Below are positions 4,100 to 18,108 of a stretch of DNA of 21,156 nt, in pieces. The notes under the pieces are model-generated. The model did no database searches, had not been told where the DNA came from, and saw only the letters and a list, made by a program, of their open reading frames with translations. The stretch spans positions 1-21,156 of the IMG/VR virus record IMGVR_UViG_3300044949_000390, one strand, 5' to 3'. Each line of letters opens with the position of its first letter. Within the stretch, counting starts at the first letter, position 1. Origin of the DNA: a virus. Made by a program: the position numbers and the translations under genes.

Positions 4100-6454
4100 C
4101 TAGCGCTTCCCGTCAGGCCGCATATCAAGGCGCGGAGCGCCTAGCTGCCACGTCACACCAAGCCCCGTTGACTCCACTTTCATCGCTATCTGTCGCCCGC
4201 GTATCCGAGTGTAGATCTGCCCAGTGAACTGTTCGATCGGCAGGGTTGCAGTCCGCGTAATCGTTCGATAGCTCTGGTTGGCGACCGAATGATTGGCATC
4301 CGTTGCGGTGTTGACTGAATAGCCAGACCCGGAGTTCTGCATTGGAAGTAGGTACATCGTAGCAGCGGGCGCGTTTGCCGTCGAGTTGGCGAACGTCATG
4401 TCCGGCAGGACCCGCCAGACAAACATGAACTGGTGGCCGTCGTCGAGGTCGAACTGCGCAGAGGTGATCGAAGCAGTGATCGGGAGCGGCGTTCCTGTAA
4501 CGTTGTCATCAAGCCCTTGCTCATGGTTCACAAGGTTGTTGGCGTAGGTCGCCGCAAGGGGGTAGTCCCGCACTCCCGAATCCAGCCATGCGGTGCGCGC
4601 CATCTGCCCGTAGTACCACACCCCCCGTCCGCCTTGCGCATTGGCTTCGAGGTAGTTGTAGATCACGTAGCGATCGATTGTGTCAGAGCCGGCGGAGCAG
4701 TAGAACCACCAGACTTCGTTGAAACCTTCGTTGGTGCCCGCAAACACCTGCTGAAACTGCAAGGGGTTGATATCCTCAAAGATGTAGCGGCGCAGATCGC
4801 AATTAAGCGGCTGCGTGCGGCCATCGTACATATAGAACTTGTCTTTCCCCATCCAGTACGACACACCGTTCGTAAAGGCCACTGCGTTCTGGCTTGCAAT
4901 CGAGATGTTGTCGCCTTGGATCTGAGCACCCCAGACATCCGGTGCGCCAAGGTATTGAAGCGAGTACAGCGCTGAGTCCGTCCAGACCAGCACCTCTTGC
5001 CGTGACTGTGTAGCCGCAACGATCTCGGACCCGCGAGAAAGCCTGAGCGAACCCGCCTGATTGGTTGCATCGGGCGTCCAGTTGTAGGGGTCTTCTTGGT
5101 CAGACCAGCGGATCAGCATTGGGTCAAACGTGGCGCTGCCCTCAGGCGTACACCCCATCGCAAACAGAAACCGGTTGATGTCCGACACCAAGATGACGTT
5201 TTGCGAAATGGGTACGCCAGACGCGCCGCCGTAACTGGAGAGCGGTTCTGCTCGCGCAGAGATGCTATGCGTACCAGATTGCGTGCCCGTCGTAGCGATA
5301 GGCGACCCACCGGCGGTGCTCGACACGTTAAACGCAGTCCCGCTTGAGTTCACCACGTAGTACAAGGTGCCGGCGGAAAGCCCCGTGGGCAGGGCCCCGG
5401 TTGTCAGCAGGCGAATGGGCGTGCCGTTTGCGAATGGCACACTAGTTGAAATGACCGCAGGTGAAGCGATCGTAATCGACACGCTAGGCGGAAGCACGCC
5501 AATCGTCGCGTCCCAGTAGTAGATCTTCCCACCCCGGTAGCCAAAGACGAGGTCTTCTCCGAAGTTCTGCTGGCTCCAGAGCCGAAAAGGCTCTGTTGAA
5601 CTCCCGCCCGTCCCCCAGACGCCGCTACCCCACAAGCCCGCACCCCACCCTACCGTCGGCACCGCGTCGGAAGGACCTACGTTAATTTGATAGAGGGCTT
5701 GTACCGTGCCTCCACCTGACGCAACGCTGGGTGAGGTTGCTTTTGCAGCCACCTTATGCGTTCCACTTTGCACCGAGCCAAGCGTACTGATGGCCGCGCC
5801 ACCTGAAGTGGCAGAAAGCTGGAAGGTATAACCAGCAGTGCCTACAACGTAATACGGCGTTCCAGCAACAAACGGAGAGGGCAAGGCGCCAGTCGTAGAG
5901 AGCGTGACCTCGACGCCGTTAGCAAGCTGATTCTGGCAGGTCAGCACCGCTGGGTTTGCCGAGGTAATCGTAACTGGAACTTCGGTACTGACCGTGTACG
6001 ACGTCGTACTGACTAGCGTGAGCGAATACTCACCAAGGAGCGTAATTCCGCCGATGGCGGAACTACCGTAAAAGCTGACGTAGTCTCCGTCGATATAGCC
6101 GCCGTTGGCGTCGGTGACTGTGATAGTTGATGACCCGCTGGTCGTGGCAAACGGATTGGTCAGTGTGACCGAGGTCCGCAAAGGCGTTACGTCGTAGTAC
6201 GCGCCGCCCTGCTCGATGTAGAACTTGATGTTGGTGCCGACGCCAAGAAGCTTTTGAGAGCCAAGCGTCACCCAACTCCACAACGAACGGCAGAGTCCAA
6301 GGAACGTATTGCTGGAGATGCGCTCCCAGCCACCAATCTTCTCGGGCGTGCCTTGCCGGAAGCGAACCTTCTCAGACTCGTACCATCCGCCTTCGTTGGT
6401 GTACCGCGTGTTCTCACGGTTGACGCCGGGCTTTAGCAGAAGTTTTTTAAGCAT
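4100..6454 (-). CDS. P22 gp10-like packaged-DNA stabilisation / tail nozzle protein
   Basis: 784 residues. The N-terminus has the pattern of this family: short Lys/Leu stretch, Gly-Val-Asn-Arg-Glu-Asn-Thr, then Gly-Gly-Trp-Tyr-Glu-Ser-Glu-Lys-Val-Arg-Phe-Arg. Recurring Trp/Gly strands follow, as in a beta-propeller (for example residues 301-315 and 505-545). In P22 the gp10 family forms the hub below the adaptor and closes the channel after packaging; the SU10 nozzle has an equivalent role. Two related ~75-residue domains are inserted at about 163-238 and 326-402, sharing Thr-Thr-Gly-Ala-Leu-Pro, Ala-Gly-Thr-x-Tyr-Tyr-Val-Val and Gln-Ser-Gly-Thr-His. They help explain why the protein is much longer than P22 gp10 (about 470 residues). 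The gene lies two bases after the lysozyme stop. Confidence 0.82.
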   Translation of the reverse strand: MLKKLLLKPGVNRENTRYTNEGGWYESEKVRFRQGTPEKIGGWERISSNTFLGLCRSLWSWVTLGSQKLLGVGTNIKFYIEQGGAYYDVTPLRTSVTLTNPFATTSGSSTITVTDANGGYIDGDYVSFYGSSAIGGITLLGEYSLTLVSTTSYTVSTEVPVTITSANPAVLTCQNQLANGVEVTLSTTGALPSPFVAGTPYYVVGTAGYTFQLSATSGGAAISTLGSVQSGTHKVAAKATSPSVASGGGTVQALYQINVGPSDAVPTVGWGAGLWGSGVWGTGGSSTEPFRLWSQQNFGEDLVFGYRGGKIYYWDATIGVLPPSVSITIASPAVISTSVPFANGTPIRLLTTGALPTGLSAGTLYYVVNSSGTAFNVSSTAGGSPIATTGTQSGTHSISARAEPLSSYGGASGVPISQNVILVSDINRFLFAMGCTPEGSATFDPMLIRWSDQEDPYNWTPDATNQAGSLRLSRGSEIVAATQSRQEVLVWTDSALYSLQYLGAPDVWGAQIQGDNISIASQNAVAFTNGVSYWMGKDKFYMYDGRTQPLNCDLRRYIFEDINPLQFQQVFAGTNEGFNEVWWFYCSAGSDTIDRYVIYNYLEANAQGGRGVWYYGQMARTAWLDSGVRDYPLAATYANNLVNHEQGLDDNVTGTPLPITASITSAQFDLDDGHQFMFVWRVLPDMTFANSTANAPAATMYLLPMQNSGSGYSVNTATDANHSVANQSYRTITRTATLPIEQFTGQIYTRIRGRQIAMKVESTGLGVTWQLGAPRLDMRPDGKR

Positions 6455-8402: not shown

Positions 8403-10988
8403 TCATCCGCGAGCGGCGAGTTGCCGCTTTAGATCGTCAATCTGGGCTTGAAGTTCTTGCACCGCCTTAACCAGCACGGGTATAAGTGTACCCGGAGCAG
8501 CTTCGAGGCGCTCAGGGTTGATGTCGTGGACCAGCCCCGGCAGCGTGACTCCGTGGTCGGCTTGGGCCTGTCGAAGTTCTTGAGCGATAAACCCGAACTC
8601 CGGCACGTCTACTTTGCCCCCATCCCGAGTGTTCCAGACAAACGAGACCGGATGCAAACGCTGGATAAAGCTTACCCCCAGCGGGATGTCCTGCACGTCC
8701 TTCTTGTCCCGCGCATCGGAGAGCGCAGTGATGGTCGTGACTTGGCAGCGTAGGGTGGCAATCGACGAGTTGCCAAGGGTGATTTCATTGGAGACTGTGG
8801 CGGTAGACGAGGCTGCGTTGTAGCCAAGGATGAGGTTATTCGCCCCTGATGTAAGCGTAGATGCGACGCTATAGCCAAGAACCGTATTATTGTTTCCAGT
8901 GACTGTTGAAGTAGAAAATGCGTTGGATCCAATTGCTGTGTTGCCGGAGCCGGTCGTTAAATTAATAGCCGCGCGGGTCCCAAATGCAGTATTGTCATCA
9001 GCAATAGATCCGCTAAGCGCGAAAGATCCTACTGCAGTATTGTTATTATTAGTAATGATTGCATCAAGCGCTTGATATCCAATCGCCACATGCTCGGCAC
9101 CAGAGATGTTTTCCGACAAAGCTTCATGGCCGATCGCTATAACATTATTTGCAGAATATCGAGCGGTTCTAAAACCGATGCCTATACTATAAGTTGGGTT
9201 GGCATTTGAAATTGAAGAGGACCCAATAGCGATGTTATAAGCGCCAGTGGAAATTGCTCCCCCAGCACTGGCCCCGAGTATAACATTATTGCTCCCGCTA
9301 TCAATGCTACCGCCGGCTGACGCGCCGTATACTGTGTTTGCCGCGCCACTCGTTAACGCAAACAAAGACTGAAATCCAACCGCTGTGTTGTTATTCCCGG
9401 TTGCGGTTCCATTGATAGCCTGATAACCAATTGCAGTATTTGCAGAAACCGCTCCACCGCCCCGCCCAAAGTTAATTCCGGCTATGGTGAGCGTATTTGT
9501 AGTTTTGTTCCACGTAAAGTCTGCATCTCCACCGAAGGACCCGCCGTCGTTAAACTGGACTTGCGTCGTTGACCCCCCGGGGGAACCGCCGCTTACCGTT
9601 GCCCAAGACGTATTCGTGCCGTCGGTCGTAAGGTACTTCCCGTTGTTTCCGGTCTGTGACGGCGCAAGAGCGTTGAACGCCGCGCTTGCGGTAGTCTGCC
9701 CGGTACCGCCGTTAGCAATTGCTAGCGTACCCGCAAGGGTCACCACACCGGTGGTAGCCGTGTTTGGCGTAAGCCCTGTCGTACCTGCCGAGAATGACGT
9801 AACGCCGCTTGCAGCGGCGGCCACCCAAGACAGCGTGCCCGTCCCATTGGTGCTCAAGACCTGTCCATTTGTACCGTCAGCGGCAGGCAGTGTGTACGTC
9901 GCAGACCCCGCTATGGCGGCGCCTTTCAACCCCACGTAGCCAGAGGTAGAGCCTGACAGGCGAAGCAAAGGAAGCACGACCGCGCCCGTGCCGTTGGGCG
10001 TAAGGTTGATTGCCCCGTTTGCTCCGTCCTCAATAGTGATGGAGCCGGAGTTCGTTCCTGAGTTGGTGTTTAGGATTAGATCGCCCGCACCGTTGGAAGT
10101 AATGGTGACATTCGCTCCGGAATCGCCTACACGGATTGTGTCTGCGTCTAGCTGAACGTCGCCCGTGCCGTTCGGGGCCAACGTGATGTTGCCGTTGGTG
10201 TCCGTTGAGGACAGCGTGTTCCCTTCAAGCCGTAGATTGTCTACGTTGAGTAGCGTTGATACCGTTACCGCGCCAGTGGAGTCCGCAATCGTGATGGCGG
10301 AAGCGCCATCGTTTGCCTTGATGTTAGTGACTTGCAGGTTGGTCGTCGTGACGAGGGCTGTCAGAACTGACGTCTCGCAGTAAAGAGTTCTCCACGACTT
10401 GGCCGTCGAACCCAGATCCCGCGCATTGTCGGTGGAAGGAAGCAGGTCCGTGTTGAACTGGCCGGTGGCGGTGATGGTGTCCGTTGCCGCGTCGCCCAGC
10501 GTGGTGTTCCCATTGACGGTCAGGTTGCCTGAGAGCGTCGCATTGACGAAGGACGTCACGCATTGATTGACGTTGGTGCCATCGCAGAACAAGAAGGCAG
10601 TCTCGCCCGCAGGGATGGCTACGCCCGGGTCCGGCGGGGCCGGAGGGACATTTGTTGCTTTAACCGTGACCGCAAAAGATGTACCGTTCTTAACTACATA
10701 CATCTTGGACGCCGCTGGGCAGGTGACATCCCCCGGCCCAATAAGCGCACTACCGCCGGATCCGGTAGCCAACACAAGCATTGCGCAGCGTGATTCAGAG
10801 CTTGTGCCGTCAGCGGTGGTGAGCGTATGTGAAGTGTTGCTTGTCCACGTGCTGATCGTAGCTAGCCCTGCCACTGCCTGCTCAACCATCGAGGTAATGT
10901 TGTCGTTCACAACCGTACCCCATGTGCCGGATAGCTCTCCGGTCACCGGCAGGGCCAGTTTAAGGATGGGGGTGTAGGCAGTGGTCAT
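8403..10988 (-). CDS. Tail fibre with beta-roll repeats and C-terminal peptidase S74 chaperone
   Basis: 861 residues. The N-terminal part (about 1-500) is Thr/Gly/Asn-rich, with strands typical of long phage fibres, including recurrent Ala-Pro-Asn-Gly-Thr-Gly and Ala-Asn-Gly-Gly-Thr-Gly-Gln-Thr-Thr motifs. About 13 copies of a 17-residue repeat of the Asn-Thr-Ala-Val-Gly type follow (about 515-745). The last ~105 residues are an S74 (endosialidase-type) intramolecular chaperone: Ser757-Asp-Ala-Arg-Asp-Lys762 has the catalytic Ser-x4-Lys spacing, then Phe-Gly-Phe-Ile-Ala-Gln-Glu-Leu and a final coiled coil. S74 domains trimerise the fibre and then cut themselves off just before the Ser, so mature fibres probably end near residue 756. 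The protein likely binds a cell-surface receptor. The start has GAGG upstream. Confidence 0.93.
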   Translation of the reverse strand: MTTAYTPILKLALPVTGELSGTWGTVVNDNITSMVEQAVAGLATISTWTSNTSHTLTTADGTSSESRCAMLVLATGSGGSALIGPGDVTCPAASKMYVVKNGTSFAVTVKATNVPPAPPDPGVAIPAGETAFLFCDGTNVNQCVTSFVNATLSGNLTVNGNTTLGDAATDTITATGQFNTDLLPSTDNARDLGSTAKSWRTLYCETSVLTALVTTTNLQVTNIKANDGASAITIADSTGAVTVSTLLNVDNLRLEGNTLSSTDTNGNITLAPNGTGDVQLDADTIRVGDSGANVTITSNGAGDLILNTNSGTNSGSITIEDGANGAINLTPNGTGAVVLPLLRLSGSTSGYVGLKGAAIAGSATYTLPAADGTNGQVLSTNGTGTLSWVAAAASGVTSFSAGTTGLTPNTATTGVVTLAGTLAIANGGTGQTTASAAFNALAPSQTGNNGKYLTTDGTNTSWATVSGGSPGGSTTQVQFNDGGSFGGDADFTWNKTTNTLTIAGINFGRGGGAVSANTAIGYQAINGTATGNNNTAVGFQSLFALTSGAANTVYGASAGGSIDSGSNNVILGASAGGAISTGAYNIAIGSSSISNANPTYSIGIGFRTARYSANNVIAIGHEALSENISGAEHVAIGYQALDAIITNNNNTAVGSFALSGSIADDNTAFGTRAAINLTTGSGNTAIGSNAFSTSTVTGNNNTVLGYSVASTLTSGANNLILGYNAASSTATVSNEITLGNSSIATLRCQVTTITALSDARDKKDVQDIPLGVSFIQRLHPVSFVWNTRDGGKVDVPEFGFIAQELRQAQADHGVTLPGLVHDINPERLEAAPGTLIPVLVKAVQELQAQIDDLKRQLAARG
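8760..9440. repeat. 17-residue (51-bp) beta-roll repeat array in the S74 fibre
   Basis: About 13 units follow the pattern Ala-Ile/Val-Gly-x-x-Ala/Ser-x-x-x-x-x-Thr/Ser-Gly-x-x-Asn-Thr. The first clear units are Ala-Ile-Gly-Tyr-Gln-Ala and Ala-Val-Gly-Phe-Gln-Ser, and the last are Val-Leu-Gly, Ile-Leu-Gly and Thr-Leu-Gly. The units are more diverged from each other than those in the longer fibre. The pattern resembles the head repeats of YadA-type trimeric adhesins. Confidence 0.85.
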
Positions 10989-11754: not shown

Positions 11755-14700
11755 TTACGCAGAACGATAAACAACTGTTGCAAGAATAATTCCAGTTGCT
11801 TGCACTGCTGCTGGGGCATCTTGCCCACCTCCAACAGGTATGTTCATCACCCGCATATAGGACACATTGTTAGAAATCTGCAAAACTTGAGTATTGTTGG
11901 CGCCATACACAGTTGCAGTGCCCATGCCGTTAATTGGGCCGCCACCGTATGCGTTTACAACATTCTCGGAAGTAAACGGCAAACCCCCAATGTTGATATA
12001 TCCTGTACCAGTAGCAGAAGTCCAATCAACACGGAAGATGCAAGTCACCAAATTTCCAATCTTTGTGTATCTGCCTGTTTGTATCGTATAGCTTGTTGTT
12101 CCTGCGGTCGTTTCCCCAAACACCGTTGGCGTCCACGTGCCTTCTTCGTAATCGTCCAGCGTGTTGGCGTTGCTTGAGGCGGATTGGGTGGCGGGGAAGG
12201 TGATGCCTGTTTGATTAAGTTGTGCGCCGTTTGCAGGGGTTCCAAGCGTGTTATACGCAACAGCGCCCGTGCCGTCTTGGGCGACATTTCCAATCAAGTT
12301 TCCGTTGTAAAAAAATCTTTGATAACTGACCCCAGAGGCAACTCCTGTTGCGTGCCCAAAATCAGCAAAAGTGTTGCCAGGGCTATAGGCAAAATAACTT
12401 CCGGTGTTAGTAAGCGTAAACGCACCGACAAAGAAATTTCCATTGTCGTCAAAATATCCCCTTGGATTCCCGTCTCCATCGGAAAGAACAATCCGATTTG
12501 AAAGAGTGCGGATGTCGAGGCCACCTTGGTTGCCGTCGTAGCCGCCAAGAACCGTGTTGTTGGAGCCGGTGGTGATGTAATAGCCTGCGCCACTCTGGCG
12601 AGTGCTGTTGCCCCCAATCAGCGTGTTGCCGACACCCGTAGTGACGCTGTACCCAGCAGTAGTTCCAACAACGGTGTTCCATGCAACTGTGCCGGTAGAA
12701 AGGCTGTACCCGGCGTTGATGCCAACTGCCACGTTGTATCCGGAGGTGGTGGCCGAATAACCCGCCTGCCTGCCGATAAAAGTGTTGTTGGCAGCGGTGG
12801 TGCTGCTGTACCCCGCCTGATAACCTACAGCAGTGTTGTTATTGGCCGTGGTGTTGGATTGGAGTGCTTCAAAACCTATCGCAGTATTGTTTTCCCCGGT
12901 TGTATTTGAATCAAGTGAACTTCTTCCCAATGCCGAATTAAACCTACCTGATGTATTGGCTGCACCGGATGCATCGCCAACAAACACATTAAACCCCGCA
13001 GTGGTAGCGTACCCAGCCGCACGGCCAATGAAGGTGTTGTACTCGCCGGATTGATTGCTATACCCCGCCTGATAACCAACTGCCGTGTTGTTGGAGGCGG
13101 TGGTGTTTTGACCTAGCGAGCCTGCGCCCAAAGCAGTGTTGTAACTGCCTGTGGTGTTAAAATTCAAAGCGGTGTAAGAACCACCAAGTCCACCAACTGC
13201 TACATTGGCTGTACCAGTGGTGTTGCTATATGCGGCCGCATAACCAACAGCAGTGTTGTTAGAGGCGGTGGTGTTGAAGTAAAGGGCAAATGTCCCGATT
13301 GCTGTGTTGTAGTCTGCCGCCGTCTGGCTCTTCAGTGCCTGATAGCCAAAAGCAGAGTTGTAGACGCCCCCGTTGTCTGTGTAAATGGCTTGGTAGCCCA
13401 TAGCAGTGTTACTGCTGCCCGTGGACTTTGTGTACAGAGCCTGATAACCAACAGCAGTGTTGTTAGAGGCGGTGGTGGTGTTGGCAAGTGCGGACATACC
13501 CACGGATGTGTTGTAACTACCCGTGGTTGTTTGATAACCGGCATTGTCACCAACTACCGTGTTGTAACTGCCCGTAGTATTGCTGTAAGCGGCTTGATAA
13601 CCAAGAAATAGATTGCGCGTTCCAGTGCTATTCGTATATCCCGCCTGATAGCCTACAGCGGTGTTGTTAGAGGCGGTGGTGTTGGAGAATAAAGCATCAC
13701 CACCAAGCGCAGTGTTGTACGCGCCAGTTGTCGTAAAACGCAAAGAGTTGACACCCACTGTGGTGTTGTAGGAACCCGTAGTAACCGCATAACCGGCACG
13801 ATGCCCAACGCCGACATTCTGTGTCGCGCCATTTGTGGAATACAGGGCCTGATACCCAAGTGCAGTTAGAACAGTGCCCGTAGAGTTCGTATAACCTGCC
13901 TGATAACCAATAGCAGTAAGTTCAGTGCCTGTGGTGTTTGTGTACGCTGCTTGGTAACCAACAGCGGTGCCGCCAGAGGCGGTGGTGTTGGCGTATAACG
14001 ACCACATACCAAGCGCGGTGTTGTAGCTGCCGGTAGTGTTTGCAATAAGCGAAGCAGTGCCGAATGCCGAGTTGTGCTCGCCTGTGGTGTTAGCGAGCAG
14101 TGCAACCTGACCAACGCCTGTGTTGTACCCTCCGGTGGTGTTAACGTTGAGTGCCCGTTCGCCAACTGCCGTAAGCCCCGATGCTGTCGTAGATGAGGCA
14201 AGAGCGGCCCGTCCAACGGCCACGTTCGCAACGCCTGTAGTGTTAGCGAACATGGCAAGATAGCCAACAGCGGTATTGTCGGAGGCGGTGGTGCTTTGTC
14301 CTAATGCGCTGATGCCGATTGCGGTGTTATAACTTCCTGTTGAATTTTCTTGCAATGCGGCGTACACACCAGCACCACCTGATCCAAACGATGCATTGCG
14401 TGTTCCTGTGGTTGTGTTGCATTGCGAGTTACGACCAAATGAGGAGTTAAATTCTCCGGTCGTATTTAATCGCAATGAACTGTCACCAAAGGCGTCAAGA
14501 GTTCCGGTCGTATTACTGTACCCAGCCTGATAGCCAACAGCGGTATTGTTGGAGGCGGTGGTGTTGGAAAGGAGGGCTTGAGAGCCGATTGCCGTGTTAT
14601 TCCCTCCGCTGGAGCCAGAAGCGCCGCTTTGCAACGCAGACCATCCGAGCGAGGTGTTGTTGGTTCCAGTTGTGGTGTAGTAACCCGCTTGGAAACCAAC

Positions 14701-15528
14701 ATGCGTGTTATTTGCGCCCGTAGACGAATATCCGGCAGTCTGCCCAATAAACGTCCCATAAGCAGCATTTGTTGAGTAACCGGCTTGGTATCCAAGAGCA
14801 ACCGTGCCGCCAGAGCCACTGGTGTACGAGTACAAAGACTGATATCCAACAGCGGTGTTGCTAGAGGCGGTGGTGTTGGAGTAGAGAGCCGCTTGCCCAA
14901 TAGATGTATTGTTCGATCCAGTAGTCGTTGAATGCCCTGCCTGAGAACCAACTGCGGTGTTATAGAGACCTGTGGTGTTGTTTCTCGCTGCTAGTCTTCC
15001 AATTGCTGTTAACTCGTTTGCGGTTGTATTACTTAGCCCAGCCTCTGATCCGATAACGGTGTTTGCGACTCCTGTCGTATTAGCCGCCAAAGCACTCGCA
15101 CCCACCGCAGTGTTGGTGGACACAGCACCGGCTCCACGGCCTACGGTGACTCCGTAGATAGATGCGTCTAACGAGGTTGTGAGCGTTCCGGCAATAGAGA
15201 CATTTGTAGCAGTGTCGTAATAGACAGACCTGCCAGCAGGGTATGTACAGAAGACATCCTTAGTCCCGGCTGAGAAGCTGACAAGACTTCCACCGTTAGA
15301 CGACGCTAGAACCGTATCCCGGCTGAGCGTAGTACCCGACGCGGTATACGTACCAATCCCCACCTCCCACTCGTTCACTCCCGGCAGGTTGATGGTGTAG
15401 TACGTGGTATTCCCATTACCGATAGCTGAGAAGCTCTGAAAACCTGCTACCGCCCCGGCGAGGGTAATAGTCCCGGTCCCAAGAGTTGTGGTCGTTTCTC
15501 TAACACGGTCTTTGACGACTAACGGCAT
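11755..15528 (-). CDS. Long tail fibre/adhesin of about 50 beta-roll repeats
   Basis: 1257 residues. The N-terminal ~125 residues are a fibre-attachment domain seen in many phages: Lys-Asp-Arg-Val-Arg-Glu-Thr-Thr-Thr-Thr, Gly-Phe-Gln-Ser-Phe-Ser-Ala-Ile-Gly, and Leu-Ser-Arg-Asp-Thr-Val. Residues about 141-1000 are a tandem array of roughly fifty 17-residue repeats (consensus Ala-Val-Gly-Tyr-Gln-Ala-Gly-Tyr-Ser-Asn-Thr-Thr-Gly-Ser-Tyr-Asn-Thr), like the left-handed beta-roll of YadA-type adhesins. The C-terminal ~250 residues hold Asp-Asp-Tyr-Glu-Glu-Gly-Thr-Trp-Thr-Pro-Thr, a common fibre tip motif, then a beta-sandwich-like end. No S74 chaperone is present, unlike the second fibre. The protein is probably a trimeric receptor-binding or surface-adhesion fibre. 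AGGTGAAG precedes the ATG. Confidence 0.93.
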   Translation of the reverse strand: MPLVVKDRVRETTTTLGTGTITLAGAVAGFQSFSAIGNGNTTYYTINLPGVNEWEVGIGTYTASGTTLSRDTVLASSNGGSLVSFSAGTKDVFCTYPAGRSVYYDTATNVSIAGTLTTSLDASIYGVTVGRGAGAVSTNTAVGASALAANTTGVANTVIGSEAGLSNTTANELTAIGRLAARNNTTGLYNTAVGSQAGHSTTTGSNNTSIGQAALYSNTTASSNTAVGYQSLYSYTSGSGGTVALGYQAGYSTNAAYGTFIGQTAGYSSTGANNTHVGFQAGYYTTTGTNNTSLGWSALQSGASGSSGGNNTAIGSQALLSNTTASNNTAVGYQAGYSNTTGTLDAFGDSSLRLNTTGEFNSSFGRNSQCNTTTGTRNASFGSGGAGVYAALQENSTGSYNTAIGISALGQSTTASDNTAVGYLAMFANTTGVANVAVGRAALASSTTASGLTAVGERALNVNTTGGYNTGVGQVALLANTTGEHNSAFGTASLIANTTGSYNTALGMWSLYANTTASGGTAVGYQAAYTNTTGTELTAIGYQAGYTNSTGTVLTALGYQALYSTNGATQNVGVGHRAGYAVTTGSYNTTVGVNSLRFTTTGAYNTALGGDALFSNTTASNNTAVGYQAGYTNSTGTRNLFLGYQAAYSNTTGSYNTVVGDNAGYQTTTGSYNTSVGMSALANTTTASNNTAVGYQALYTKSTGSSNTAMGYQAIYTDNGGVYNSAFGYQALKSQTAADYNTAIGTFALYFNTTASNNTAVGYAAAYSNTTGTANVAVGGLGGSYTALNFNTTGSYNTALGAGSLGQNTTASNNTAVGYQAGYSNQSGEYNTFIGRAAGYATTAGFNVFVGDASGAANTSGRFNSALGRSSLDSNTTGENNTAIGFEALQSNTTANNNTAVGYQAGYSSTTAANNTFIGRQAGYSATTSGYNVAVGINAGYSLSTGTVAWNTVVGTTAGYSVTTGVGNTLIGGNSTRQSGAGYYITTGSNNTVLGGYDGNQGGLDIRTLSNRIVLSDGDGNPRGYFDDNGNFFVGAFTLTNTGSYFAYSPGNTFADFGHATGVASGVSYQRFFYNGNLIGNVAQDGTGAVAYNTLGTPANGAQLNQTGITFPATQSASSNANTLDDYEEGTWTPTVFGETTAGTTSYTIQTGRYTKIGNLVTCIFRVDWTSATGTGYINIGGLPFTSENVVNAYGGGPINGMGTATVYGANNTQVLQISNNVSYMRVMNIPVGGGQDAPAAVQATGIILATVVYRSA
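12530..15110. repeat. 51-bp (17-residue) repeat array with higher-order structure
   Basis: Roughly fifty 51-bp units encode the beta-roll. A well-conserved DNA block (plus strand AGAGGCGGTGGTGTTG and variants, encoding Asn-Thr-Thr-Ala-Ser-Asn-Asn) recurs near 13270, 13470, 13670, 13975, 14280, 14550 and 14865. These intervals are about 200-310 bases, or four to six basic units, so the array has a second, longer period. A few units carry short insertions, for example near 14610 (Ser-Gly-Ser-Ser-Gly-Gly). Confidence 0.92.
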
Positions 15529-15535
15529 ACTTCAC

Positions 15536-16045
15536 CTATACGGTAGGAATGATTGTCCAGCCTGTTCCCGGGCTGACCGTAATCTGAATCCAATTTGCAT
15601 TCTGAGTGTCATCTACCGGTTCCCACAAGCCCCGGCGGGTAACCGCGTCAGAGCCGGTTGCAGACTCCGATACCGAAGCCAAGAACGTAACGGTCGTGGT
15701 CAAGGAATCAGCGGCGGTAGAAGACTCTGAGACGGAGACGACGAAGGTAACGGCAGTAGCAACCGAATCCGCGCCTGTCGCGGACTCAGAAATAAAGTTG
15801 GGGAAGGAGACGAGTGAGGCAACGGAGTCGGCAACGGTGCTGGACTCCGATACGCTAGAGTTGATTTGGAAGGTAGAGGAAACAGTATCAGAACCTGTTG
15901 CAGACTCTGAGACCGACGACAGGAACGTAACAAGACTGCTGACGGAGTCAGCGCCTGTGGCGGACTCAGATATGACGGGGGAGTAAAACGTACCCCCAAC
16001 CGTTGAGAACGGGAGTTCTGCAAAAGACCCGGTTGAAAAGGCCAT
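15536..16045 (-). CDS. Repeat protein with 20-residue Ser-Glu-Ser-Ala-Thr repeats
   Basis: 169 residues. After a 24-residue N-terminus (Met-Ala-Phe-Ser-Thr-Gly-Ser-Phe-Ala-Glu-Leu-Pro), six 20-residue repeats run to about residue 136: Val/Ile-Ser-Glu-Ser-Ala/Ser-Thr-Gly/Val/Ala-Ala/Ser-Asp-Ser-Val, then about nine variable, mostly beta-forming residues ending in Ser. The C-terminal ~33 residues contain Trp-Glu-Pro-Val-Asp-Asp-Thr-Gln and Gly-Trp-Thr-Ile-Ile-Pro, a non-repeat cap. The regular acidic/Ser/Thr pattern suggests a small beta-solenoid or stalk. It lies seven bases before the long fibre gene, so a fibre-base or decoration role is plausible but unproven. No enzyme motif is seen. Confidence 0.85.
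   Translation of the reverse strand: MAFSTGSFAELPFSTVGGTFYSPVISESATGADSVSSLVTFLSSVSESATGSDTVSSTFQINSSVSESSTVADSVASLVSFPNFISESATGADSVATAVTFVVSVSESSTAADSLTTTVTFLASVSESATGSDAVTRRGLWEPVDDTQNANWIQITVSPGTGWTIIPTV
15638..15973. repeat. 60-bp tandem repeat (20-residue Ser-Glu-Ser units)
   Basis: Five full and one partial 60-bp units are diverged at the DNA level but share the codons for Ser-Glu-Ser-(Ala/Ser)-Thr-x-x-Asp. The period is distinct from the 51-bp repeats of the fibres. Confidence 0.9.
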
Positions 16046-16765: not shown

Positions 16766-17182
16766 TCAATTGCTTGAACGGATCAAAGCCGTGGTAGCTG
16801 TATCACCCGGCATTGTGACCGTAAATGTGTTTATGCAGGTTTTGTCAGACCCGAAATCCAGTACCACGATTGACCGATTGGCTTTGCTGGCATTGTAGAG
16901 CAGCGCGCACCGAGTGGTAAAGGCTGCCGGGACCCAGAGCACGTTGTTGAACGTCACCCATGCAGTGTAGCCACTGCTGTTAATTGTCACCCCGGTTACT
17001 ACGTTTCCACCTGCGCTGTACCCCGTGCCCGTAATCTCATTTTCCGTGGTGTAGACGGTCGTAGACGCATCCAAGTTGGCTTCCGCCGTATACAGCGCGA
17101 GCTTCAGCGTGTCCGTTAGCAGGTTGTGGATAGCCTCATACAACTCCGCCTTAAAGCTGGTGGTCTGGGTCTGGACGATCAT
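16766..17182 (-). CDS. Conserved phage virion protein, 138 aa (beta-sandwich-like)
   Basis: The protein starts Met-Ile-Val-Gln-Thr-Gln-Thr-Thr-Ser-Phe-Lys-Ala-Glu-Leu-Tyr, with a short helix (Ala-Ile-His-Asn-Leu) and then alternating strands: Leu-Lys-Leu-Ala-Leu-Tyr-Thr-Ala, Thr-Gly-Thr-Gly-Tyr-Ser-Ala-Gly-Gly-Asn-Val-Val, Ala-Trp-Val-Thr-Phe-Asn and Ile-Val-Val-Leu-Asp-Phe-Gly. The C-terminus has Phe-Thr-Val-Thr-Met-Pro. Such proteins often follow the adaptor gene in environmental podoviruses and are regarded as structural; the precise role is unknown. Its ATG overlaps the adaptor stop (ATGA). There is no signal or membrane segment. Confidence 0.83.
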   Translation of the reverse strand: MIVQTQTTSFKAELYEAIHNLLTDTLKLALYTAEANLDASTTVYTTENEITGTGYSAGGNVVTGVTINSSGYTAWVTFNNVLWVPAAFTTRCALLYNASKANRSIVVLDFGSDKTCINTFTVTMPGDTATTALIRSSN

Positions 17183-18108
17183 TTGACCGGGTTCCTTACC
17201 TGCCCATCACGATAAGCATCCATACGCTGCTTGCCGTCGCCAAGATTCTTGAGAAGCGCCAGTGATTGGCCGTAGAGCTGAGCGTACATATCCATCTGCT
17301 CTTTCTCGGCCTTCATGAACCGAGCAGCTTCAACAACCGTAGCGTTCAAAAGCGCTGAGTCAAAGTTCTCGCCTAGCCAAGTGACACCGCTTGCGTTGGT
17401 GACTGCAGAAACGGAGATGCTAAAGCCGGAACCTGTCCCGCCGATGCTCGACGCATCGCAAGACAACGTATTCCCCACTGCGTAGAACACGCCGGGGTTT
17501 TGAATCGTGACCGAGGTCACCGCACCGCCGGAAACAACAATCCGAGCTGTTGCACCAGAGCCAGAACCGCCCGTGAGAGCTACACCGTTATACGTCCCGT
17601 TGGTGTACAACGAGCCCGCCGTGATGGCCCCCAGCGTATTCAACGCACCCTGAACGATAGACTCAGGGTAGTAGTAATAGTGCAGCTCAACGTAGTACGC
17701 CAGATCGGGCGTAGGGCCTACGATGAACGAGAGTTCCGTCTCCAGATCTGACCTTGGCCCGAAGATCGCGTAGTACTTGGGTACGCCCTTGGAGTTGGGC
17801 GGCGGGTACGCTTCGCGGATGAAGTTCACATCCTTGTTGATCAAGTACGAGTACGTACCGGTGTTGAGAACACCGTTGACAACCCCCGTGATTACGGCAA
17901 GAGAGTAGGTAGACAGGTAGTCCGTCGGCGCAGATAGATACTGATTATCAGTGGTCAACTGCCCATAGACGTTCTTGCGCAGATTGGCAATCTGCACAGA
18001 GTTGTAGATGATCTGTTCGGCCTGACGGACGAACATCGCCATCTGAGCATCGGTGAAAGTGTTCTCAACGATGTTCGCAACATTGGTTGCCAACTCAGTG
18101 TATTGCAT
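17179..18108 (-). CDS. Portal-tail adaptor protein (SU10-adaptor-like) with inserted beta domain
   Basis: 309 residues. Helical N-terminus (about 1-55, Phe-Val-Arg-Gln-Ala-Glu-Gln-Ile-Ile-Tyr-Asn-Ser), then Ile-Arg-Glu-Ala-Tyr-Pro-Pro-Pro-Asn-Ser-Lys-Gly-Val-Pro-Lys-Tyr-Tyr and Ile-Val-Gly-Pro-Thr-Pro-Asp-Leu-Ala-Tyr. The Glu-Leu-His-Tyr-Tyr-Tyr-Tyr-Pro-Glu-Ser strand follows. The C-terminal part has Thr-Trp-Leu-Gly-Glu-Asn-Phe-Asp-Ser-Ala-Leu-Leu and ends in a helical region with Met-Asp-Ala-Tyr-Arg-Asp-Gly-Gln. This matches the adaptor of phage SU10 and relatives, which links portal to nozzle. Residues about 155-238 are an extra Gly/Ser/Val-rich domain (Ser-Gly-Ser-Gly-Ala-Thr-Ala-Arg-Ile-Val-Val) that looks inserted between two core strands. 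The family call is from recalled motifs. Confidence 0.85.
   Translation of the reverse strand: MQYTELATNVANIVENTFTDAQMAMFVRQAEQIIYNSVQIANLRKNVYGQLTTDNQYLSAPTDYLSTYSLAVITGVVNGVLNTGTYSYLINKDVNFIREAYPPPNSKGVPKYYAIFGPRSDLETELSFIVGPTPDLAYYVELHYYYYPESIVQGALNTLGAITAGSLYTNGTYNGVALTGGSGSGATARIVVSGGAVTSVTIQNPGVFYAVGNTLSCDASSIGGTGSGFSISVSAVTNASGVTWLGENFDSALLNATVVEAARFMKAEKEQMDMYAQLYGQSLALLKNLGDGKQRMDAYRDGQVRNPVK

Follow-up and report, generated by a model that had tools for sequence, protein, structure and literature searches.

The window analysed here, a 21,156-base IMG/VR virus record, carries its recognisable genes on the minus strand, including a lysozyme (PF00959), two fibre genes in total and a stabilisation-like structural protein (4100-6454) with 28-38% identity to podovirus proteins. 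The larger fibre gene is laid out as follows.

11755-15528 (-), fibre gene, 1257 aa (open frame; PHROG profile matches)
15154-15528 (-), N-terminal anchor, aa 1-125 (kept in siblings with an unrelated downstream part)
12508-15153 (-), array of 51 units with consensus NTAVGYQA(L/G)YSNTT(G/A)S(Y/N) (unit delimitation; AF2 on 12 units)
11758-12507 (-), array end cap (GNQGGLDIRT..IVLSDGDGNPR) and C-terminal domain with DDYEEGTWTPT (conserved in relatives)

Repeats and fibre-related domains are also found elsewhere in the window. The second fibre (8403-10988, minus strand) contains few similar units and ends in a C-terminal intramolecular chaperone, Peptidase_S74 (PF13884). Directly upstream of the larger fibre, a small protein (15536-16045, minus strand) carries degenerate repeats around SVSESATGADSV, with longer repeat versions in the related records L166 and L190. 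A large protein cut by the contig end (1-3168, minus strand) includes, at 1-610, perfect 18-bp repeats coding GTQPGT, KPPADT and GETGGA-like hexapeptides. At 17179-18108 (minus strand), residues about 150-240 of the product match portions of numerous unrelated PHROGs for baseplate and tail-fibre proteins, as a decorative domain inserted there would.

A preliminary description of this DNA had proposed a long fibre of about 50 17-residue repeats at 12530-15110. The repeat number was borne out, with 51 units from aa 126 to about aa 1007, 42 of them exactly 17 aa long and the remainder 13-23 aa; the array does lie in the proposed place, although the limits given fell slightly short of the actual 12508-15153. 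Lag autocorrelation of the fibre protein peaks at 17, 34, 68, 51 and 85 residues; positions 17 residues apart are identical in 36% of cases. A profile search matched the protein to phrog_23837 (E 5e-127), phrog_6002 (E 3.5e-111) and phrog_4636 (tail spike, E 2.3e-94), with 9-10 stretches matched over the repeat region, and by this profile evidence the window fibre belongs to the phage 17-residue fibre repeat family that these PHROGs represent. Relatives of the fibre were found by tblastn in 130 phage records, and they occur in at least 585 viral contigs. The end cap and C-terminal domain are common to many of them, and the anchor is 93-96% identical to that of three relatives (L085, L163 and L092).

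AF2 modeling of 12 units with 24 related rows predicted a regular β-solenoid with one turn per 17-residue unit (pLDDT 80.7; the AF2 predictions are of monomers only), in agreement with the earlier suggestion that each unit might be one turn of a β-roll. The array had also been compared with YadA heads, whose unit has 14-15 residues. YadA-type head repeats (PF05658, trimeric autotransporter adhesins) are likewise short repeats of (N)xAxG type, and the window array is predicted to be a β-solenoid; its unit, however, has 17 residues and stands in a phage tail context. Membership was not supported by Pfam, sequence profile and fold searches: at E<=1 the window protein was not hit by PF05658 (YadA_head), no solved YadA-type head was recovered by sequence profile search, and none was among the 50 best fold matches listed for the 12-unit model. 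This model matched predicted viral adhesion-like proteins and had no PDB match at E<=0.001. Among 25 related segments, PF05658 appeared in one (E 0.098) and weak Pfam signals for left-handed β-helix families in five. Since neither Pfam nor PDB gave a significant YadA match, the comparison is kept as an analogy of style only. The model of the C-terminal domain (pLDDT 61) is good only in the middle, and this better part gave weak fold matches to tailspike and lactococcal receptor-binding heads (best E 3e-3), resemblances that would fit a receptor-binding tip but are no proof of one.

Within the array, the TTA[SN] junction occurs 11 times, nine of them in a canonical DNA form. We use the term island for the stretch of about 55-60 bp around NTTAS that is conserved as DNA, and count positions from T0, the first Thr of TTAS. 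The nine islands, with the evidence for each, are:

14824-14880 (-), island 1 (TCCAACACCACCGCCTCTAGCAACAC...) (codons; family profile)
14512-14568 (-), island 2 (codons)
14242-14298 (-), island 3, STTASD form (codons)
13936-13992 (-), island 4, NTTASG form (codons)
13630-13686 (-), island 5 (internal exact repeats; codons)
13426-13482 (-), island 6 (internal exact repeats; codons; 34-nt exact match to island 7)
13222-13278 (-), island 7 (internal exact repeats; codons)
13054-13110 (-), island 8 (codons)
12802-12858 (-), island 9, NTTANN form (codons)

T0 of the nine canonical junctions lies at aa 219, 323, 413, 515, 617, 685, 753, 809 and 893, so that neighbors are 168-312 bp, or 3.3-6.1 units, apart; the preliminary description was right that an NTTAS(N)N block returns every few units. 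In related arrays, the junctions are spaced at a median of 5 units (IQR 4-6.4, 556 intervals).

The island consensus is roughly 5'-TCCAACACCAC(A/C)GC(A/C)TCTAACAACACTGCTGT(A/T)GGTTATCAGGCGGGGTATAGC-3', and its reading frame and phase never vary. Over the window array as a whole, paired codons for one residue at one unit position are identical in 36.9% of cases, compared with 33.1% after codon shuffling, which indicates that most of the array is close to saturation at synonymous sites. Nevertheless, the array holds 14 exact repeats of at least 16 nt (16-34 nt), against 1.2 expected from codon shuffles, and almost all of them are located at the TTAS junction. Across 110 junctions in 32 related arrays, codon agreement exceeds what the codon usage of each gene predicts only in the stretch between about codons -4 and +15, counted from T0. 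NTTG junctions in the same arrays display essentially no excess; a late rise in this control at +15 to +17 arises because the next unit is often an island.

A set of 180 arrays retrieved by protein similarity, with 591 junctions, showed the same preference: ACC is used at T0 in 80% (20% expected), TCC two codons upstream in 56% (10% expected) and GGG at codon +13 in 61% (10% expected). The preference decays within about 60 bp, and TTG junctions lack it at the equivalent positions. In arrays of low, mid and high GC3, the ACC fraction is 0.71, 0.81 and 0.87 in islands versus 0.10, 0.16 and 0.25 elsewhere; host codon bias is therefore no explanation, as the preference is present in AT-rich and GC-rich arrays alike. 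The islands are thus conserved as DNA across phages whose arrays have otherwise diverged at synonymous sites.

All 261 motif hits (261/261) lie in the sense frame of such arrays and never outside them, and no inverted recombination sites of shufflon type were found among these hits; the genes considered in the window fragment likewise include no evident site-specific recombinase. Islands are present in the cultured Roseobacter phages CRP-1 and CRP-7. A scan of bacterial genomes with the long island pattern gave 0 hits, and a shorter pattern hit a single contig of an uncultured betaproteobacterium MAG (L431, 6582-6608), possibly phage or prophage DNA; the island is therefore not a common bacterial or prophage sequence. 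In the window, the second fibre (8403-10988) is without a canonical island; it is 96% identical in L163, whereas the larger fibre is hypervariable.

Conservation of this kind could reflect a function of the nucleic acid itself: the island might form a hairpin in RNA or DNA, bind a protein or pause translation, and breakpoints would be a by-product. The strength of the synonymous conservation would suit such a role, as would the folding of a single island (z -2.6) and the rarity of several island codons in low-GC phages. The motif, however, never stands outside arrays, and the same codons are retained where they are common, so codon rarity is not the rule. The hairpin itself was rejected: over 99 islands, 68% of cells were paired, against 67% with partners shuffled. 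We consider a nucleic-acid function of the island unlikely.

The preliminary description had explained the recurrence by growth of the array through duplication of multi-unit blocks, so that the recurring block would mark successive copies of an ancestral multi-unit repeat. The spacing of 3-6 units agrees with this, and the longest internal match, of 34 nt, lies at exactly 4 units. Homology nevertheless ends at the island edges: self matches within the window array remain below 50 nt, and a self duplication of at least 100 nt is present in just 12 of the 206 related arrays. Similarity between units is scarcely higher at lags 4-6 than at other lags, and the same island stands at non-orthologous places in other phages. 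Internal duplication of blocks, absent from this array and rare among its relatives, is accordingly highly improbable as the cause, and the proposed mode of growth is not supported. In our reading, the NTTAS block recurs because it belongs to a short DNA island common to the arrays of different phages, which would serve as a site of module exchange.

Comparison between arrays, mostly from short-read metagenome contigs, showed where sharing occurs. Between arrays with no other detectable homology, exact matches of at least 23 nt link 1002 of 6300 array pairs, compared with about 137 after codon shuffling, and 73% of such matches start in islands, which make up 17% of array length. When 216 arrays were compared all versus all, the longer shared segments, 80-98% identical, started on islands of both arrays in 13 of 47 cases and ended there in 25 of 59. 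Because conserved islands can draw alignment ends to their edges, a uniform-position null was replaced by simulated in-frame, in-phase random transplants, matched in length and identity and run through the same blastn as the real arrays; these placed 3.5% of starts and 5.2% of ends at islands (binomial p 5e-9 and 4e-17). The first set had partly been fetched by the motif itself, and the test was therefore redone without motif-selected contigs. In 180 arrays fetched by protein only, 9/31 starts and 8/34 ends lay on islands, versus 2.6% and 3.3% in simulation (p 6e-8 and 1e-5); an earlier, smaller protein-only subset had given 2/17 starts (p 0.12, not significant) and 5/18 ends. The p-values are only approximate, since events share arrays, and the majority of breakpoints are not on islands. 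Where different fibre genes have a segment in common, its start and end coincide with islands far more often than those of random transplants do.

Gene conversion could also have carried the NTTASNNTAVGYQAGYS unit from array to array in recent times, without the unit having any present part in exchange. The islands do resemble a cloud of variants around one sequence, as a recent expansion would leave them; such an expansion, however, gives no reason to expect islands at the ends of long shared segments. Taken as the whole account we rate it as rather unlikely, and it overlaps with exchange at islands, as recombination there would itself spread them.

Individual cases illustrate the exchange. 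One module of the window array is shared with the phage contig L344:

14531-14880 (-), module from island 1 into island 2, common to L344 (93.1% identity over 350 nt)

Its ends lie at -6 and +31 nt relative to T0 in both arrays. In the pair L241/L252, the loci are 95-98% identical on both flanks, and the middle of the fibre is replaced from +45 of an island. The two near-identical genes differ in fibre length by 267 nt, consistent with the earlier expectation that recombination could change the length without breaking the frame. This natural pair, with one replaced stretch starting at an island, is a good test case for reads. In L163, the products of the flanking genes are 83-97% identical to those of the window, and the fibre, of 1431 aa, is collinear with the window fibre only at its two ends. 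In L084 and L087, the neighboring structural genes are 97-100% identical to the window and the anchor is common, followed by a different protein from about aa 112. In L083, a sibling with 97-100% identical neighboring structural genes, the larger fibre is replaced after the first ~112 residues by a homolog of the second fibre.

Metagenomes supplied most of these contigs, and misjoins classically arise at repeats of 20-60 nt; the apparent swaps might be chimeras in which sequences of different phages were fused at the recurring island during short-read assembly. The shared segments bounded by islands, however, fall short of 100% identity, at about 80-98%. The islands are also shorter than a typical read, and synonymous conservation within each contig is independent of joins. 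Given the identity of the modules and the presence of islands in the cultured CRP-1 and CRP-7, we regard assembly chimerism as very unlikely.

We therefore favor, with a probability of roughly 0.75, homologous recombination at the islands that shuffles modules of 3-7 units of the β-solenoid shaft between co-infecting phages. The tail fibre would have a long shaft of tandem 17-residue β-solenoid turns with a DNA island every 3-7 turns, and in co-infected cells crossovers would take place at the islands. Each crossover would join whole modules in frame and re-spread the island, which would explain why islands stay alike while modules diverge; crossovers at these sites preserve both frame and phase. 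The agents are probably phage annealing recombinases, which would need about 23-27 nt of identity. A published estimate of the minimal pairing segment is 23-27 nt with Redbeta and 31-34 nt with RecA (PMC3945230); with matches of at least 23 nt concentrated in islands, the islands supply roughly the identity that annealing recombinases require. Annealase genes were found in 5 of 18 partial related records (ERF in four, Sak4-type in one, RecT in none), most of these records being incomplete, and no recombinase is visible within the 21-kb window fragment. The outcome may be combinatorial variation in fibre length and side surface, and thereby in adsorption. It is from sequence comparison that we infer recombination as the agent, its enzyme class, the co-infection setting and the effect on adsorption.

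In a stronger form of this proposal, the islands would be kept specifically as joints for recombination, forming an exchange code shared across species of aquatic phages and making the shaft a combinatorial cassette system with a common connector. Their upkeep would then be due to selection for evolvability or to a recombinase recognising the islands. We put this forward tentatively, as an extension that we consider rather unlikely.

Fibre mosaicism is known, but the reason for the positions of the joints usually is not; in the present arrays the sequence itself reveals where they lie. A hypervariable fibre is split by a connector of about 60 bp, found in phages that are not otherwise alike, into modules that share one frame and can be exchanged. 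This makes it possible to predict breakpoints, to trace exchange partners among uncultured aquatic phages and to test directly the identity needed by phage recombinases in nature. Short-read assembly of arrays with a common connector calls for care.

The PHROG families phrog_23837, phrog_6002 and phrog_4636 (virion structural protein or tail spike) have the same 17-residue repeats as the window fibre, but their descriptions mention neither islands nor an exchange of modules. In the limited literature library searched, periodic DNA connectors within a repeat shaft were not described, and nothing was found on the repeat peptide. That tail fibres are mosaic, and that T-even phages exchange segments between conserved motifs, is established (Tetart 1998, cited in PMC7468147; PMC10684548): short conserved stretches in or beside the host-recognition gene act as joints for the exchange of variable segments between phages, as proposed here. 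The portions considered of three papers offer a plausible mechanism and a wider setting of fibre mosaicism similar to the window case, namely Rad52-like phage recombinases that carry out relaxed homologous recombination (PMC3945230), pan-genomes of phage genes whose variants shuffle (PMC7468147) and domain mosaicism of tail fibres (PMC10684548); unlike the window case, those portions describe no repeat-array islands fixing the joints. Arrays of the window type share with the T-even genes conservation of the joints at the DNA level and, from comparative evidence, exchange breakpoints at them. The T-even motifs are situated in the gp37/gp38 region, whereas in arrays of the window type the joints are periodic inside a tandem-repeat shaft, are found in diverse uncultured phages and allow the unit number to change. 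The T-even fibre genes are thus the precedent, and what appears to be new here is the periodic connector within the repeat shaft.
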